A stretch of 64,000 bases of DNA, from contig NZ_CP037953.1 in assembly GCF_009756665.1 (NCBI RefSeq), positions 1,364,001-1,428,000 of the forward strand, written 5' to 3'. The notes under the pieces were generated by a model. That model had not been told where the DNA came from. It made no database searches and was given only the letters and a program-made list of their open reading frames with translations. Below, in pieces: positions 38,126 to 45,591 of this stretch (the stretch's first letter is position 1; each line of letters opens with the position of its first letter). Both the position numbers and the translations under genes were made by a program. The stretch is from Permianibacter aggregans. GTDB lineage: Bacteria; Pseudomonadota; Gammaproteobacteria; Enterobacterales; Permianibacteraceae.

Positions 38126-39592
38126 ATGAATTATTGCGGAGTTATCGTGTTTTATCGTAAAAAGTTTGTTTTCATTTTGGCCATGCTGACATCCGCATTT
38201 GCCCAGGCACAATCACCGCAGTTTCAGGTTGAGGTCAGCGCGGATAGCGTTCACGTCGAAGCGCAATACACGGTGCACGGCAAAACACTGGCTTTGTTCA
38301 ATGTGCAGCAAACCGAACAACTGCCAAATGGTCAGGCCGGTTTTATTCGCAATCTTGTCGTCAAAGATGCCGATGGCAAACCGGTAAAGTTCAAAGCCAC
38401 CGAAGATGGTGATTGGAATTTGGCGCGTGGCAACCAAACGGTAACCGTCAGCTACGATGTGGTGGCCGAGCACGGCAACTACCGCTGGCCGGCTGGCGAA
38501 GAGGAAGTTGCGTACCGGACCAATGACGGTTTGTTTTTTACCGGTTACGCATTGTTTATCGTGCCGGCCGAAAAAATGGATACCGATATCAGCGTAAAAT
38601 TTTCGTTGCCGACCGGTTGGCAAGCCAGCACGCCATGGCGCGCCACCGGCGACAATCAATTCCAGGTTTATAACCGCCGTGAATTGTTGGTCAACGCCAT
38701 GTTTTTTGGCGATGCCCATCGCGAAGTGCTGAAAGAAGGTGACTACGAATTGGAACTCGTGCTGGGGAAAAACTATGCGAACTCCAGCAAGCTGTTCACC
38801 GAAGTACTGCGCCCGATGTTGAAACACAGCACCGAACTATTTGGCAGCGCACCGAAGCGCAATCGCTATTTGATTATCGTCAACGAGGGAGCCAGCGGTG
38901 ATGGTGGTGCCTTTGAAGGCAGCTTCAGCCAGTTGATCAACGGTCCGGCCACTGAAAACAACCGGGTCGTTTGGGGTTATGTCATGGCCCATGAACTATT
39001 CCATTTCTGGAATGGCGTTGGCTTGGCGCCAGCCGCTGAAACAGAAGAATGGTTCAAAGAAGGCGTCACCGATTACATGACGTCATTGCTGCTGTATCGC
39101 CATGGCGTGTTCAACGAACAATGGTTTCACAAACGCCTGGAGACGATGTACACCCGCTACATGATCGGCAAGTTCTATCAACGCGCCAATGTCAGCCTGC
39201 AGGAAGCCGGATTGGATAAACAAAATCAGCGGGCATTGGTTTACGGCGGTGGCGCGCTGGTGGCGATAGCGCTCGAGGCCGAAATGCGCAAAGCCTCGAA
39301 CGGCGAAGCCGGTGTCGCGGAATTGCTGCGCGCGATGTACCAGGAGCTGGCCTTGCAGAACAAACCGTACACGCTGGAAGATATCCGCCGCTTGAGCAAG
39401 CAAATCAGCGGCTACGATCCGGCGCCACTGTTCGCCGAGCATGTCAGTGGCAAGGGCTACTTATCCTTAACCGAGCCATTGAAGCAGCTAGGTTTGAGCT
39501 TGGCGGCATTTGCCGAAGAAGCGACCGTCACGAGAGATGCTGCAGCCGATGAACTGGCGAGCAAAATTCATCAGAAAACGTTTGGTCTATAA
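38126..39592 (+). CDS. Secreted M61/M1-like zinc metallopeptidase
   Basis: A 488-aa exported gluzincin. Signal peptide (FVFILAMLTSAFAQAQ), a beta-rich N-terminal domain, and zinc motif HELFHFWNG near residue 290 with the third ligand Glu in EEWFKEGVTDYM about 20 residues later. This resembles M61 glycyl aminopeptidases and related secreted peptidases. No PDZ domain is fused, but a PDZ-protein gene lies immediately downstream on the other strand. ATG start. Confidence 0.85.
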   Translation: MNYCGVIVFYRKKFVFILAMLTSAFAQAQSPQFQVEVSADSVHVEAQYTVHGKTLALFNVQQTEQLPNGQAGFIRNLVVKDADGKPVKFKATEDGDWNLARGNQTVTVSYDVVAEHGNYRWPAGEEEVAYRTNDGLFFTGYALFIVPAEKMDTDISVKFSLPTGWQASTPWRATGDNQFQVYNRRELLVNAMFFGDAHREVLKEGDYELELVLGKNYANSSKLFTEVLRPMLKHSTELFGSAPKRNRYLIIVNEGASGDGGAFEGSFSQLINGPATENNRVVWGYVMAHELFHFWNGVGLAPAAETEEWFKEGVTDYMTSLLLYRHGVFNEQWFHKRLETMYTRYMIGKFYQRANVSLQEAGLDKQNQRALVYGGGALVAIALEAEMRKASNGEAGVAELLRAMYQELALQNKPYTLEDIRRLSKQISGYDPAPLFAEHVSGKGYLSLTEPLKQLGLSLAAFAEEATVTRDAAADELASKIHQKTFGL

Positions 39593-39604: not shown

Positions 39605-39634
39605 AAAAACACCGGCCAAGGCCGGTGTTTTTTT
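39605..39634. terminator. Strong bidirectional terminator
   Basis: AACACCGGCC and GGCCGGTGTT make a perfect 10-bp stem with a 2-base loop, flanked by A5 on the left and T7 on the right. It serves the plus-strand peptidase gene and the convergent minus-strand PDZ gene. Confidence 0.92.
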
Positions 39635-39636
39635 GA

Positions 39637-40086
39637 TTAGAAACTGACGTCCAGTTGCTGTTCCTTGCCATTACGGATAATGGTAAACGACAGACGCTGA
39701 CCGGCAGGCGCATTGGTGACAGCATTGATCACATCGCTAGCACCGCTGACGGCGTTTTTGTCAATGGCAATGATCAAATCATTACGCCGAAAACCGCTAC
39801 GCTCCGCCAGTGATGCCGGCGCAACAGCCTCGATAACGGCACCGGTTTGCCTTTTGTAAAACGCTTGATCTTGCGGACTCAAATTATTCAGCGCGATGCC
39901 AAGACGCCCTTGTGAGGCAGCAGGTGCAACCGGTGCCGCCAGCACACCACCACTGCCTGGTGAAGTCGTATTGACCGGCGGCGGCGTGTACACCGGCAGC
40001 GGATCGGTGGCCGAACCCAGTGCGCCGATGATTGCCGTACCGAACATCAGCGCCGCTAGCCCAGCGCGAAGTTGACGTTGCTTCAT
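39637..40086 (-). CDS. PDZ-domain periplasmic protein
   Basis: A 149-aa protein from the ATG at 40086 (MKQRQLRAGLAALMFGTAII), with a signal sequence or anchor, a Pro/Thr-rich linker (PLPVYTPPPVNTTSPGSGG) and one C-terminal PDZ domain (GAVIEAVAPASLAERSGFRR, NDLIIAIDKNAVSGASDVIN, LSFTIIRNGKEQQL). No protease domain, so probably a binding or scaffold protein for envelope proteins. 19 bp after the next upstream gene, likely in one operon with it. Confidence 0.85.
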   Translation of the reverse strand: MKQRQLRAGLAALMFGTAIIGALGSATDPLPVYTPPPVNTTSPGSGGVLAAPVAPAASQGRLGIALNNLSPQDQAFYKRQTGAVIEAVAPASLAERSGFRRNDLIIAIDKNAVSGASDVINAVTNAPAGQRLSFTIIRNGKEQQLDVSF

Positions 40087-40105: not shown

Positions 40106-40684
40106 TTATATCGGGGTTGACGACAACCACAGCATCCAGCCATACCAGGTTTTGTCGCGCGTTTGACGACCATAATCGTCCGTGTAAGTATCGCGCCAAT
40201 CCATCATTTCATAAGCAACCGAAATACCACCGAAGCGGGCATTATCCAGCTTGTCTTTGGAAACGCGCACATAGTAAGACTGGCTGCCCGGACCGAAGGC
40301 AGCATTGATCGCCTGGTTGAAAATCAGCAAACCATAGAGTGGCTGATCATGGCCTTTGACATGCACCAGAACCGGCTTGGCGCCAAGCTGACGCGCCGCC
40401 TGATACTGATTCGCCAGCGTTTTTTCATCAAAACGGGCATTCCAAAGGTTCAGCGCGAATGGCGTGCGGAACTGCTCACCACCTTGCAGCACAAAGCTGC
40501 CATCCATCGCTTCGATTTTCAGCTCGGTGTTGACCAGTGTGCCGTAATTGATCGGACGCAGCGTACGATCCGTGTGATTAATATAAGTAGGCGCCGAACC
40601 GGTTGCACCAATGAACGCGATAACCGCTGTACACATTGCCAAGACCAAGCGCCAGCGACGCGAATGCCAAACAGATTTCAACAC
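40106..40684 (-). CDS. Exported protein of unknown function
   Basis: A 192-aa protein with an N-terminal signal (RLVLAMCTAVIAFIGATGSA) and a mature part with alternating aromatic and charged residues, likely beta-rich (YYVRVSKDKLDNARFGGISV). GTG start at 40684 has GGAGG 7 bp upstream, which decides the start. No known family seen. Third of four minus-strand genes of mainly exported proteins (41846 to 39637). Confidence 0.65.
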   Translation of the reverse strand: MLKSVWHSRRWRLVLAMCTAVIAFIGATGSAPTYINHTDRTLRPINYGTLVNTELKIEAMDGSFVLQGGEQFRTPFALNLWNARFDEKTLANQYQAARQLGAKPVLVHVKGHDQPLYGLLIFNQAINAAFGPGSQSYYVRVSKDKLDNARFGGISVAYEMMDWRDTYTDDYGRQTRDKTWYGWMLWLSSTPI

Positions 40685-40742: not shown

Positions 40743-41399
40743 TCAGCGCAGCAACAATAACGCGCCGTCGCGCCAGGTCTGCACAGCTTGCAATTCCGGT
40801 GTCTGCCGGTTTAACTCAACGGAGCCGGCGACAACCGGCCAAATGTAGACGGCGCTGACGATTTCATTGTTGCTGACGTATTCGCAGCGCGGTGCATTAC
40901 CCTCCTCGCCCAGCCGTCGACCGGCGACATCATCACCGAGCTTGCGACCTGAAGTATCTTCGCCGAGTTTGCGGCCGGACACGTCCTCGCCCAGTTTGCG
41001 GCCGGCATCTCCCTCACCGAGTTTGCGACCGGCATCCTCTTCACCAAGTTTGCGGCCGGCATCGGCTTCGCCCAACTTACGGCCGGCGTCATCCTCACCA
41101 AGACGACGACCTGCAACATCCTCACCAAGCTTGCGACCGGCATCGGCCTCGCCCAGTTTGCGGCCGGCGTCATCTTCGCCAAGGCGACGACCAGCAACAT
41201 CCTCACCAAGCTTACGGCCAGCATCGTCTTCACCGAGTTTACGTGGATTCAAGCAAGCCGCCGGCAGCTGCCAACGGAAACCGTTGATCGACACATGCCA
41301 TTGCGTATCAGAAAGCGTGAGTGTTAGCGGGGCTTGTTCTTGCGCAAAAGTGGGGCTTGCTGCGGCGAGACTTATCGCCATCAGGGCGGCACGAATCAC
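40743..41399 (-). CDS. Exported protein built of thirteen 9-residue repeats
   Basis: A 218-aa protein: signal peptide (1-19), a short domain with Cys49, then thirteen tandem units of consensus GRKLGEDDA at residues 52-168, then a C-terminal domain beginning near Cys172. The repeats are highly charged, alternating RK/RR with GE(D/E) pairs, and may form a regular solenoid, coil or extended rod. Cys on both sides of the array could close it by a disulfide. GTG start in a GTGA overlap with the upstream gene. No family is recognised. Confidence 0.75.
   Translation of the reverse strand: MIRAALMAISLAAASPTFAQEQAPLTLTLSDTQWHVSINGFRWQLPAACLNPRKLGEDDAGRKLGEDVAGRRLGEDDAGRKLGEADAGRKLGEDVAGRRLGEDDAGRKLGEADAGRKLGEEDAGRKLGEGDAGRKLGEDVSGRKLGEDTSGRKLGDDVAGRRLGEEGNAPRCEYVSNNEIVSAVYIWPVVAGSVELNRQTPELQAVQTWRDGALLLLR
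40896..41246 (-). repeat. 27-bp tandem repeat, 13 copies, inside a gene
   Basis: Thirteen uninterrupted 27-bp units encode the nonapeptide array. Units vary mainly at codons 3 (K/R), 7-8 (DD, DV, AD, ED, GD, DT) and 9 (A/S/N), and multi-unit blocks such as DV-A/RR/DDA/ADA recur, showing growth by duplication of groups of units. Lack of stops in other frames produces spurious long ORFs on both strands here. Confidence 0.93.
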
Positions 41400-41845
41400 G
41401 GTACATCTCCTTGGCAGGGAACAACTAGCGCGATGCCGCCCGCGGCGGCGCTCAACGCCAAATCGACGAGGTCAAAGTGACCCGGCAAAAAGTATAGCCA
41501 CTGACCGAGCTCCCAGCCAGTCGCAGCGCACAACACCAGCAACGATGGCAATCGCCAACGCAGCGCCCAAATGAGATCACGCGCGGCACAGCCTATCAAC
41601 AATGCCCAGGCGAAATCCGGGTAAGTGTTGCGCAACATTTTTATCCAGGGCCGCCACTCTTCAGCAATGACCGGAGCCGGCGGCAGACTGAACCAGCGCT
41701 CAAACCATTCCTGACCGGGACTCAGCCAATACAGCGCGGTCGCCACCATGATTGCGGATAACACCAGCAACCAACTGCCGGCAGAAATCGCCGCCCGTGG
41801 TGGCAAAAACAATAAACGACTCAGCTCAGTGAAAGTACGCGGCAT
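41396..41845 (-). CDS. VanZ-like small membrane protein
   Basis: A protein of about 149 aa from the ATG at 41845 (MPRTFTELSRLLFLPPRAAI). Four hydrophobic segments and a C-terminal GWELGQWLYFLPGHFDLVDL followed by ALSAAAGGIALV, a pattern like VanZ-type or DUF2809-type membrane proteins. First gene of the four-gene exported-protein cluster; its stop overlaps the GTG start of the repeat protein. Confidence 0.6.
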   Translation of the reverse strand: MPRTFTELSRLLFLPPRAAISAGSWLLVLSAIMVATALYWLSPGQEWFERWFSLPPAPVIAEEWRPWIKMLRNTYPDFAWALLIGCAARDLIWALRWRLPSLLVLCAATGWELGQWLYFLPGHFDLVDLALSAAAGGIALVVPCQGDVP

Positions 41846-42512: not shown

Positions 42513-43448
42513 TCAGCGACGCAGTGGCTCGAAGAACGTCCAAATCACAGTGGTCGCATCAAGTGCTTGGCCCGGTTCGTCGCCGCGCCAGCTGCCCTTA
42601 CGTCCGCCGGGCCAGGCATGACCCAGTTCTCGAACAAAATAGAACTGCAGCGAAACGTCGGGCGGGCAAGCATAGCGACCGTGTTGAAACAGCGGCGTAT
42701 TGCTGACGTTAACTGTGGCGGCGCAAGCGTTGGCTTTGGCCCAAAACTCGGCCTGCGCCATCGCCGGCAATGCCGGCGTGCCATCCCAGGCATCGGGAAA
42801 ACGGCCGCCGGGCGCACCGCCATCAAACGGCACCGATTGATCCTGCATGCCGTTAATGATCAATGCGGACACCGGCGTTGCCGGCAAGCGTTCATCACCA
42901 AACAGCGTCGCCACTACCGGTGCTATCGCGGTGATGTCATCGGCCAGCTCAAAGCCCAATCGATGCGCCATCATGCCGCCATTGGAAATGCCGGTCACGT
43001 AAACGCGTTGTGCATCAATCGGATATTGCGTTTTCAATGCCAGCAACAAAGCGCGAATAAAACCGACATCATCACTGCGTTGCTGCATCGCCGGGCCGCA
43101 GCAATGACCGGCATTCCAGGTCAGTAACTTATGATCAAAGCGGCCGCGCCCTTCCGGGTAAACAACGATGAATCGTTCGCGTTGCGCCAGCGCGGTAAAG
43201 CCGGTCATGCGCTCAATGTTCTCCGCATTGCCGCCACCGCCGTGCAATACCAACACCAGCGGTAGTTTCTCGGTACCAACAAGTGACGCCGGTGCTCGCA
43301 CCAAGGCATAACGCTCCACCCCCTGATGTTGAATCTTAAAATATTCCGACGCTGCGACTGTCTGCATAAACAACACCAGCAACGCGCTCATAACCATACT
43401 TAGCCACATCGCACTCACCGACTTAGCTTTTGCCAATTGAATTGGCAT
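42513..43448 (-). CDS. Secreted alpha/beta hydrolase, PHB-depolymerase/LpqC-like esterase
   Basis: A 312-aa exported esterase. Signal peptide (about residues 12-36), oxyanion-type HGGGGNAEN, the nucleophile in VTGISNGGMMAHRLG (GxSxG), a Cys pair in AGHCCGPAMQ, the Asp region QDQSVPFDGG and His in ELGHAWPGG near the C-terminus. Family members hydrolyse polyhydroxybutyrate or feruloyl esters; the substrate is not readable. ATG at 43448 is preferred to the longer frame start at 43538. Confidence 0.83.
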   Translation of the reverse strand: MPIQLAKAKSVSAMWLSMVMSALLVLFMQTVAASEYFKIQHQGVERYALVRAPASLVGTEKLPLVLVLHGGGGNAENIERMTGFTALAQRERFIVVYPEGRGRFDHKLLTWNAGHCCGPAMQQRSDDVGFIRALLLALKTQYPIDAQRVYVTGISNGGMMAHRLGFELADDITAIAPVVATLFGDERLPATPVSALIINGMQDQSVPFDGGAPGGRFPDAWDGTPALPAMAQAEFWAKANACAATVNVSNTPLFQHGRYACPPDVSLQFYFVRELGHAWPGGRKGSWRGDEPGQALDATTVIWTFFEPLRR

Positions 43449-43821
43449 AACGTTCAACCCGCGACTTCGTTGACATCGCCCATCAATGATCGAGTACCGG
43501 TAGTTTCTTGGCGGCGCAGAAAGGCGCAACTGGCTCACAGATTTTCAAATTCATCTTAAAAATTTGCCGGCATAACCCGGCGAGAAATTGCTTCGTCGTC
43601 TTGACGCATTTCTTCGCAAACAGAGAATAATCATCCCAATCCCATACTGACTAAAACAGCGCACAAAAGCTGCTGCGATACCCACGTCACAAATTACCTT
43701 CATTAGCGCGGCAGCCCCGGCATTTTCGCTTTCGCGATGCTGTGCTATTTATTCACCGACAGCAAGGATCCGGAGCCTGCTGGCAATGACAAGAAATCTT
43801 CCTTTGCACGGAGAAGCAAAC
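43449..43821. other. Divergent intergenic region
   Basis: A 373-bp gap between the minus-strand esterase and the plus-strand metalloprotease. No convincing gene, RNA or large repeat. It must hold both promoters; no unambiguous boxes are seen. Confidence 0.5.
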
Positions 43822-45591
43822 ATGAAATGGTCAACATCCGCCATGGCGGCCGCGTTGGCGTTGGCAACGCAAAGCAGCCATGCACTCGATCTCTGGATCG
43901 AAAATATCTATGTCACGCAGGCGACACAAACCTACAACAAGTCAGTGCCACTGGTCGCCAAACGGCGCGGTCTGGTGCGCATTTTCACCCGCGCCGATCG
44001 GCCCAATAGCGCGGTACCGCAAGTGCGACTCGATTTGTATTACTACGGCGTCTACGCCAAAAGCATCACGCTGAATGCCGACAATGGTTTTGCCGGTGTG
44101 CCCACCGTCGTCGATAGTCGCAACTATGTCTATTCGCATGATTACTTTATCGACGCCGCCGATGTTCGCCCCGGCCTGCAATTGCACGCCGAAGTCGACC
44201 CGCATACTGCCTATCAACAGACCAATTACCTGAACGATGTGTGGCCGCATGGCGCGCGTCGTTCTGATTACAGCGTCGATACCAGCAAACTGGTGCGGGA
44301 GAATGTTTGGAACGCGCCTACTTATCGCACAATGTTGGTGCCGCTACGCACCAGCAATGGCTTGGTCGGCGACGTTCATACCGGCAACACCGAAAGCTAT
44401 GTCGAATACTTGCGGCGCGTATTACCGGTGCCGGAGGCACTCGATGTGCGCGTGCATAGCCCCTACTATTTCAACGGCACACCAGGGCCCAATTACGACA
44501 ATCAATGGACCCGCGTCTTGAATGAAATGGATGCGCTACGTTATGCCGAAAATCAGCCAACACGTCACTATTACGCGGTGTTGAAACCGTATTACGGTGG
44601 TGGCGGTTCCGGTATGGCCTGGATTGGCGGTTGGGCTGGTATCGGAGTCGATTGGACCACGAACATGGGCGGCAGCAACGGCACGATCACCTGGCGCAGT
44701 GGCACCTACGCACACGAGGTCGGTCACAACTTGAGTTTGCGTCATGCGCCCTGTGGTGGACCAGCCGGTGCCGATCCGTATTTTCCGTATTACAACGGCA
44801 GCATTGGTGTCACCGGTTTCGATGTATTCAAGAACCGTTACTTCAACCCATACGACAACAATTATTGGTCGGATTTAATGGGCTATTGCGGCTACGACTG
44901 GATCAGCGATTATCACTACAACAAGGCGTTGCAATGGCGTAATCGTTACGACTGGTTGAATGGTCAAAGCGTGCAGTACGGCAGCGAAAGCAAGGCCCAT
45001 ATCGCCCCGCCCATCGAGCGTGAGCAAAACGCTCAAGAATCGCTGTTGGTTTGGGGTCGTATCGAAAATGGCCGAGTCATTCTTGAGCCCGCGTTTCGCG
45101 TCAAAGGTGCTCCGACGCTGGAAAAATCAGACAGCGAATATCGGATGCAAATGCTTGATACATCCGGCCGCGTAGTCAATGAACAAGCCTTCGAAGTTTA
45201 CCCGAGCGATCATGGCGATGCGCTGGGCTTTGCCTTTCGCATGCACTTGCCAGCCGTACCGCGTACGTTCAACAAAGCGAGCGGCGGCGCAGTAAGCGAA
45301 CTGCGCTTGCTGCAACATGGCAATCAACTAGCCAGCAAACGCAGCATGCCGGCTACCGCATTGAACAAAACCACGCGGGCGCCAGCACTCAAAGTGGCGG
45401 CCGGCAAACCGGTGTTGGAATGGGACCATCATCGCTACCCAGTGGCATTGATTCGCAACGCCGCGAACGGTGAGGTGATTAGCTTTGCTCGCGATGGTCG
45501 CATCGAATTGGCGGACTTACCGGCCAAAACCATTGATGTGCAATTCGGTGATGGCGTCAACAGCGTCCACAAGCAGTTCAAACTGCCATAG
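43822..45591 (+). CDS. Secreted metzincin zinc metalloprotease
   Basis: A 589-aa exported protease. ATG at 43822 (MKWSTSAMAAALALATQSSH) has GGAG 8 bp upstream. The zinc motif HEVGHNLSLRH near residue 298 is the full HExxHxxxxxH of metzincins, and SDLMGYCGYDWISDYHY near 360 supplies the Met-turn. Cys in HAPCGG and GYCGY may pair. The C-terminal 200 residues look like beta-sandwich domains, possibly for substrate binding. An M66- or reprolysin-like relationship is possible. Confidence 0.87.
   Translation: MKWSTSAMAAALALATQSSHALDLWIENIYVTQATQTYNKSVPLVAKRRGLVRIFTRADRPNSAVPQVRLDLYYYGVYAKSITLNADNGFAGVPTVVDSRNYVYSHDYFIDAADVRPGLQLHAEVDPHTAYQQTNYLNDVWPHGARRSDYSVDTSKLVRENVWNAPTYRTMLVPLRTSNGLVGDVHTGNTESYVEYLRRVLPVPEALDVRVHSPYYFNGTPGPNYDNQWTRVLNEMDALRYAENQPTRHYYAVLKPYYGGGGSGMAWIGGWAGIGVDWTTNMGGSNGTITWRSGTYAHEVGHNLSLRHAPCGGPAGADPYFPYYNGSIGVTGFDVFKNRYFNPYDNNYWSDLMGYCGYDWISDYHYNKALQWRNRYDWLNGQSVQYGSESKAHIAPPIEREQNAQESLLVWGRIENGRVILEPAFRVKGAPTLEKSDSEYRMQMLDTSGRVVNEQAFEVYPSDHGDALGFAFRMHLPAVPRTFNKASGGAVSELRLLQHGNQLASKRSMPATALNKTTRAPALKVAAGKPVLEWDHHRYPVALIRNAANGEVISFARDGRIELADLPAKTIDVQFGDGVNSVHKQFKLP

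Follow-up and report, generated by a model that had tools for sequence, protein, structure and literature searches.

What is a 27-base coding repeat, present in thirteen copies, doing in an exported protein? The repeat lies in a 64,000-nucleotide stretch of the Permianibacter aggregans genome (here, the window), in a minus-strand gene of 218 amino acids with a GTG start (40743..41399), where the original prediction had placed a nonapeptide array flanked by one cysteine on each side. The coordinates were right: positions 40896..41246 (minus strand) comprise 351 bases, exactly 13 x 27, and encode 13 units of nine codons, namely 12 complete [G/P]RKLGEDDA-type units and a thirteenth, GRRLGEEGN, which drifts from the consensus. 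The motif R-x2-G occurs 13 times in the protein, each exactly 9 residues apart, compared to a maximum run of 3 at spacing nine in 5000 shuffles of the same protein. Tandem Repeats Finder reported 40933-41240 with a period of 81 (80% matches) and 40966-41240 with a period of 27 (72% matches). The claim of export is upheld by an N-terminus that, judged by eye, reads as a Sec-type signal peptide; it is followed by a short segment ending I-N-G-x-x-W-x-L-P-x-x-C, the 13 units, C172, and a 46-residue tail. The array lies between the only two cysteines of the protein, Cys49 (codon 41253..41255, minus strand), 4 residues ahead of the Arg of the first unit, and Cys172 (codon 40884..40886, minus strand), 11 residues past the Arg of the last. 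A long antisense open reading frame (40867-41574) overlaps the array; we attribute it to the repeat, as a by-product.

The search for the nonapeptide in other genomes that had been suggested for this locus was productive, and yielded a family of 13 distinct array proteins, from the window, the genus g16, Kangiella, and Pleionea. Twelve of them, the window's included, came from a sample of the order and one (G398) from a search of the family; loci L019, L031, L034, and L054 were excluded from the count as repeats of genes counted elsewhere, with identities checked. The rule C-x3-(R-x2-G-x5)n-1-R-x10-C is matched exactly by 12 of the 13 members, with n = 13 in the window, 14 in four members, and 15 in seven; three genera thus carry 13-15 copies, and the fourth, Pleionea, has a decayed array. 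Units were counted by R-x2-G, and no unit was skipped, because the distances from both cysteines to the nearest unit Arg, compared by script, are exact in these 12 members. In Pleionea sediminis (L050 6595-7377, plus strand), the operon described below and both cysteines are kept, while the array has decayed to a partial register with scattered R-x2-G; an Arg also stands 4 residues after its first cysteine, C57, and the second distance is 13 residues.

In the order sample of 394 genomes, a profile of the array protein matched 17, and inspection confirmed an array in 12 (11 regular, one decayed); the other five were discarded because they had no open reading frame with R-x-[hydrophobic]-G units. 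Whole-genome searches found the array protein in two g16 genomes. A scan of named genomes gave eight loci, seven of them with the array: Kangiella aquimarina, K. taiwanensis, K. spongicola, three further Kangiella records, and Pleionea sediminis. The eighth is a gammaproteobacterial metagenome-assembled genome (MAG), without the array. The proteins of these eight loci are identical to ones from the genome samples and added no members. A search of 355 genomes with the C-terminal tail gave strong matches (E < 1e-13) in 12, all of them array proteins, and four more matches at E 0.02-0.05. A class-wide match in G453 was rejected as a DNA repeat. Among the five discarded order genomes is G031, whose match is another nine-residue repeat. 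This repeat consists of approximately 20 copies of EAKRLAEEA in the N-terminal part of a protein (L002 1270-3045, plus strand) that we take, by eye, to be FtsY.

All 174 units of the 12 regular members have Arg1 and Gly4; one of F, L, H, or Y occupies position 3, and acidic residues predominate at positions 5 and 8. The strict charge alternation that had been noted describes the window protein, where a basic pair is followed by acids, but does not extend to the family: Kangiella units have a single R with roughly two to three acids, and the net charge of the array ranges from -2 to -24 in the six members counted. The same comparison bears on the idea that the protein is a precursor of 13 short peptides cleaved at basic residues, similar to known multi-copy peptide precursors. 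The units are of equal length, the window has dibasic GRK/GRR sites, and every unit of the regular members has an Arg. However, the dibasic sites are not conserved (outside the window, Gln, Leu, or Met usually occupies position 2), the proteins examined here included no recognisable peptide-modification enzyme or dedicated exporter, and the paired cysteines and conserved tail point to a single intact protein, so that we consider a precursor very unlikely.

It had also been suggested that copy number could vary between strains, as expected for a slippage-prone coding repeat of unfixed length, of the type involved in phase or antigenic variation. A coding tandem repeat within an exported protein would suit this explanation, as would the duplication of a three-unit block within the window array (period 81, 80% matches) and one pair of close relatives with 14 versus 15 units. 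The divergence of the units argues the opposite. Pairwise comparison of the window units gave pS = 0.70 and pN = 0.14, i.e., synonymous sites are near saturation, and none of the 66 unit pairs is identical at the DNA level; in the other 11 regular members, 0-4 of 78-91 pairs are identical, and pN/pS between units is 0.13-0.53 for all 12 (Pleionea left out). Unit order is kept as well: between the two g16 genomes, unit identity is 0.81 in register versus 0.60-0.63 out of register, and two Kangiella pairs behave likewise (0.80 and 0.86 in register), the remaining pairs being less clear. Three pairs of close relatives conserve both register and copy number, and the pair mentioned above differs by one unit; it should be noted that these comparisons are between species, with one genome per species. 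Since the units diverge at synonymous sites and little in protein, with no identical pairs in the window, the array is not of the slippage type, and a role in length variation is extremely improbable. Judged from this pattern of substitutions, the array units are old and individually constrained by selection.

A described repeat family was sought, and none is credible. Pfam and PDB sequence searches and a PADLOC search of the array protein returned nothing credible, NCBIfam matches were far under cutoff, and no literature on such a repeat family was found among openly licensed PubMed Central papers. Several weak hits were taken as composition noise: Tse3-immunity-protein matches (E 0.2-0.3), ribosomal S6e (E 0.09), Rubi_NSP_C in 2 of 10 members (best E 9e-4), and NCBIfam collagen-like adhesin and RTX models, far below cutoff. 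The array family is therefore previously undescribed. The array, the export, the cysteines, and the lack of a known repeat family stood as originally read, and the slippage-prone, strain-variable repeat did not.

The RTX matches deserve attention because a calcium-folding beta-roll, RTX-related or RTX-like, with nine residues per half-turn and acidic loops binding Ca2+, would share the period of nine and the richness in Gly and Asp. The K. aquimarina array protein matched the NCBIfam RTX_toxin model at E 4e-10. This match, however, reaches 38.5 bits where the cutoff is 1000, and it is confined to one of 10 members. The array proteins carry what appear by eye to be Sec-type signal peptides, and RTX proteins are not known to use these. 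The RTX consensus is GGxG(N/D)Dx(L/I/F)x as worded in a passage of PMC7354457; the array units are likewise nine residues long and rich in Gly and Asp, but differ in consensus, in the places of Gly, and in the calcium Asp. In each of the 12 regular members, the best nine-residue stretch fits only 2 or 3 of the 5 places tested, and, when the hydrophobic residues are aligned by eye, the place of the calcium aspartate is occupied by the invariant Arg. A calcium-dependent roll is accordingly quite unlikely.

Structure prediction, also suggested at the outset, was of limited use: the AlphaFold2 model of the window array protein has a pLDDT of 40, with no secondary structure in the array and no usable fold. 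Such a model agrees with a disordered, very hydrophilic protectant (hydrophilin or LEA type) that binds no specific partner, as do the array GRAVY values of -1.0 to -1.5 and the Gly content of 11-22% in the 12 regular members. Invariant Arg and Gly in each unit, exact cysteine spacing, and a fixed operon partner are unexpected for a protectant, and we regard this explanation as unlikely, although it deserves more weight than an RTX-like fold.

The fixed partner is part of an operon that, with its link to lipocones and a serine lipobox and with the protein family itself, escaped the original prediction and is the more informative part of the locus. As read from the sequence, three genes lie together on one strand in the window: a membrane protein of the Skillet lipocone type (41396..41845, minus strand), the array protein, whose gene start overlaps the stop of the upstream membrane protein gene by 4 bases, and an exported protein of 192 amino acids with a lipobox-like GS (40106..40684, minus strand). 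At all 12 array loci that were laid out, the array, membrane protein, and partner genes all run in the same direction, and the gaps between them are -38 to +58; the array gene is in the operon at 12 of the 13 loci laid out. The order is membrane-array-partner in nine (window, Kangiella) and membrane-partner-array in three (g16, Pleionea), and the partner is 187-196 residues long across the loci.

In the window, a fourth gene on the same strand encodes an exported PDZ-domain protein (39637..40086; PDZ_2, E 9.2e-14; start 40086 chosen by us, the open reading frame list starting at 40173). Its hydrophobic stretch ends in GALGS, a second GS motif, and it may be a second serine-lipobox protein; among nine window open reading frames flagged by the GS pattern, two are real genes by eye, this one and the GS partner. 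A hairpin at 39605..39632 (minus strand) is a probable intrinsic terminator at the operon end (-18.6 kcal/mol, z -5.07, for a 46-base stretch); the consensus terminator scan did not list it, probably because the T run lies inside the stem, and a consensus promoter scan listed none on the minus strand at the operon. The flanks contain an M61-type peptidase (38126-39592, plus strand), a polyhydroxyalkanoate-depolymerase-type esterase (42513-43538, minus strand), and a metzincin-like metalloprotease (43786-45591, plus strand).

The assignment of the membrane protein rests on its conserved columns. D77, W80, E112, Q115, G122, and D128 are invariant, and D125 is present in 12 of 13 proteins. According to the main text of PMC12419801, Skillet lipocones have a four-helix core with a helical handle in the H1-H2 linker, and Skillet families have an Asp in H2, ExxQ in H3, and an Asp three residues before the H4 Asp. 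With helices numbered by motif order and the G204 operon outside the motif table, we found the H2 Asp, ExxQ, and the H4 Asp in 13 of 13 proteins and the Asp three residues ahead in 12 of 13; in the window protein, the last two form DxxD. The Pleionea protein has Thr where this extra H4 Asp is expected. Resemblance to the VanZ family (Pfam PF04892), also small multi-helix membrane proteins, is weaker: 6 of 10 membrane proteins score (E 2.1e-5 to 0.18), the window's giving no match, and none of the 10 reaches the curated score of 30.1 bits (best, 25.6). Unlike VanZ-1, for which the main text of PMC12419801 gives an H2 Asn and DxDDxxxN in H4, the proteins studied here have the Skillet pattern.

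Section 23 of the same paper (PMC12419801, eLife 2025) describes Skillet-1 paired with a downstream protein that has an extracellular domain and, at its lipobox-like end, GS rather than GC; it predicts that Skillet-1 lipidates the serine of this protein. The operon considered here has the features of that description, i.e., a small multi-helix membrane protein that carries the H2 Asp, ExxQ, and the H4 Asp pair, and an exported protein encoded downstream of it, on its strand, in 13 of 13 cases, with a lipobox-like end of GS in 12 of 13. Unlike the Skillet-1 operon of that main text, it contains a third gene, encoding the array, and, in the window, the PDZ-GS gene as a fourth. The words nonapeptide and tandem are absent from that main text, and PDZ occurs there only in another operon and in a reference; the main text of PMC6000758 does not contain VanZ, lipoprotein, or tandem repeat. 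Among openly licensed PubMed Central papers, we found no experimental test of serine lipidation by lipocones.

In 12 of the 13 family members, the hydrophobic helix at the N-terminus of the GS partner terminates in A-x-G-S; in the window protein, the GS is Gly29-Ser30 (codons 40595..40600, minus strand), and G29 is invariant in the alignment, with S30 nearly so. Its AlphaFold2 model (pLDDT 88.4) has a low-confidence N-terminal helix followed by a confident beta-rich domain. Foldseek found nothing in the PDB at E <= 0.001 (best, 0.16), the best VIA-align match is meningococcal fHbp (Z 3.5, rmsd 3.2, 81 residues), and the best match in a viral structure library has E 0.051; we read these fold matches neither as kinship nor as a new fold. 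A single NlpE_C match (E 0.019, under cutoff, 1 of 11 members) was set aside.

Natural variants provide controls for the predicted role of the serine. The Pleionea partner has GC in place of GS, in the same operon that has the Thr substitution in the membrane protein and the decayed array. Two distant partner homologues, in G196 and G216, have the classic LSGC cysteine lipobox; in these genomes, no open reading frame with the lipocone motif was found within 13 kb, and no lipocone relative genome-wide. These three cases, for which shared descent is possible, fit a lipocone that would serve the serine.

The distribution of the family is narrow and patchy. The GS partner is present in 9 of 20 genomes of genus g9, in 11 of 40 of that family, and, among 369 genomes sampled across the class, in one, that of the window. 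In the two nearest genomes, G001 and G002, none of the three operon genes was matched. A search for the flanking esterase also matched 0 of these 2, although it may be present there. Within the order sample of 394 genomes, the array was found in 12, and all 12 have the GS protein. A close GS protein was present in 13 genomes, one of which, G321 (MAG locus L046), has the membrane protein and the partner without the array. The dependence is thus one-way, of the array on the GS protein, which favours the array as an accessory or ligand of the GS protein; it should be noted that this co-occurrence spans four genera, whose shared descent makes the cases non-independent.

Taking these results together, we tentatively propose, as a possibility somewhat short of probable, that a cell-envelope lipocone/GS-lipobox operon has the array protein as its third component, in which a disulfide-bounded multivalent array docks or clusters the GS protein. 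The lipocone, if the published prediction holds, would attach a phospholipid to the GS protein at its serine, anchoring this protein in the membrane. The array protein would be exported and, in the window and g16, soluble. A lipobox-like Cys ends the signal peptide in 9 of 12 array proteins under a loose pattern (in L012, the pattern caught an upstream Cys; TSGC, a non-canonical site, is likelier), all of them from Kangiella or Pleionea. Most of the array relatives therefore share the signal-end Cys of cysteine-lipobox lipoproteins, whereas the window protein and both g16 proteins are without it. The Kangiella array protein is probably in the outer membrane, because its own cysteine lipobox-like end is followed by a residue other than Asp. 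The flanking cysteines would pair as a disulfide and close the array into a loop, which may sit on a small domain formed by the segments flanking the array. The R-x-[F/L]-G-[D/E] units, equivalent to one another and 13-15 in number, would then form a surface for multivalent docking, with the GS protein as the most likely ligand, and docking would cluster this protein or tether it between the membranes. Several results speak against the proposal: the anchoring of the array protein differs between members, the window array model shows neither loop closure nor a fold, the membrane proteins stay below the VanZ cutoff, the two nearest genomes gave no match to the three genes, and the consensus scan listed no minus-strand promoter. 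A stronger version, a new envelope scaffold in which the cystine-closed loop of 13-15 motifs clusters proteins that were serine-lipidated by the lipocone of its own operon, in a non-cysteine branch of lipidation, is in our view doubtful.

If the array does bind the lipidated GS protein, the serine-lipobox system would be a multi-protein envelope assembly. The operon also offers a compact system for studying predicted serine lipidation, present in named Kangiella type strains and accompanied by natural controls. What is new is the nonapeptide array as an added component, together with an exact sequence rule for finding others.

Mobile elements were searched separately. A phage search gave no match, and neither did a plasmid search with the GS protein. 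A plasmid tblastn search with the array protein matched five records (Sinorhizobium, 3; Roseomonas, 1; Borreliella, 1), three of which were inspected; a second S. kummerowiae record and the Borreliella match were outside these three. The S. sojae frame is a different, cysteine-rich repeat with no run of R-x2-G at spacing nine. The S. kummerowiae frame is the closest to a counter-example: it is Arg/Gly-rich with an R-x2-G run of 8 at spacing nine, and lacks Met and cysteine; it was not assigned to the family. The third, from a Roseomonas mucosa plasmid (L061 1099-2061, plus strand) and annotated as hypothetical, carries nine-residue units of the GARIGSSGN type, in which R-x2-G occurs once; neither it nor the S. 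sojae frame was counted as family.
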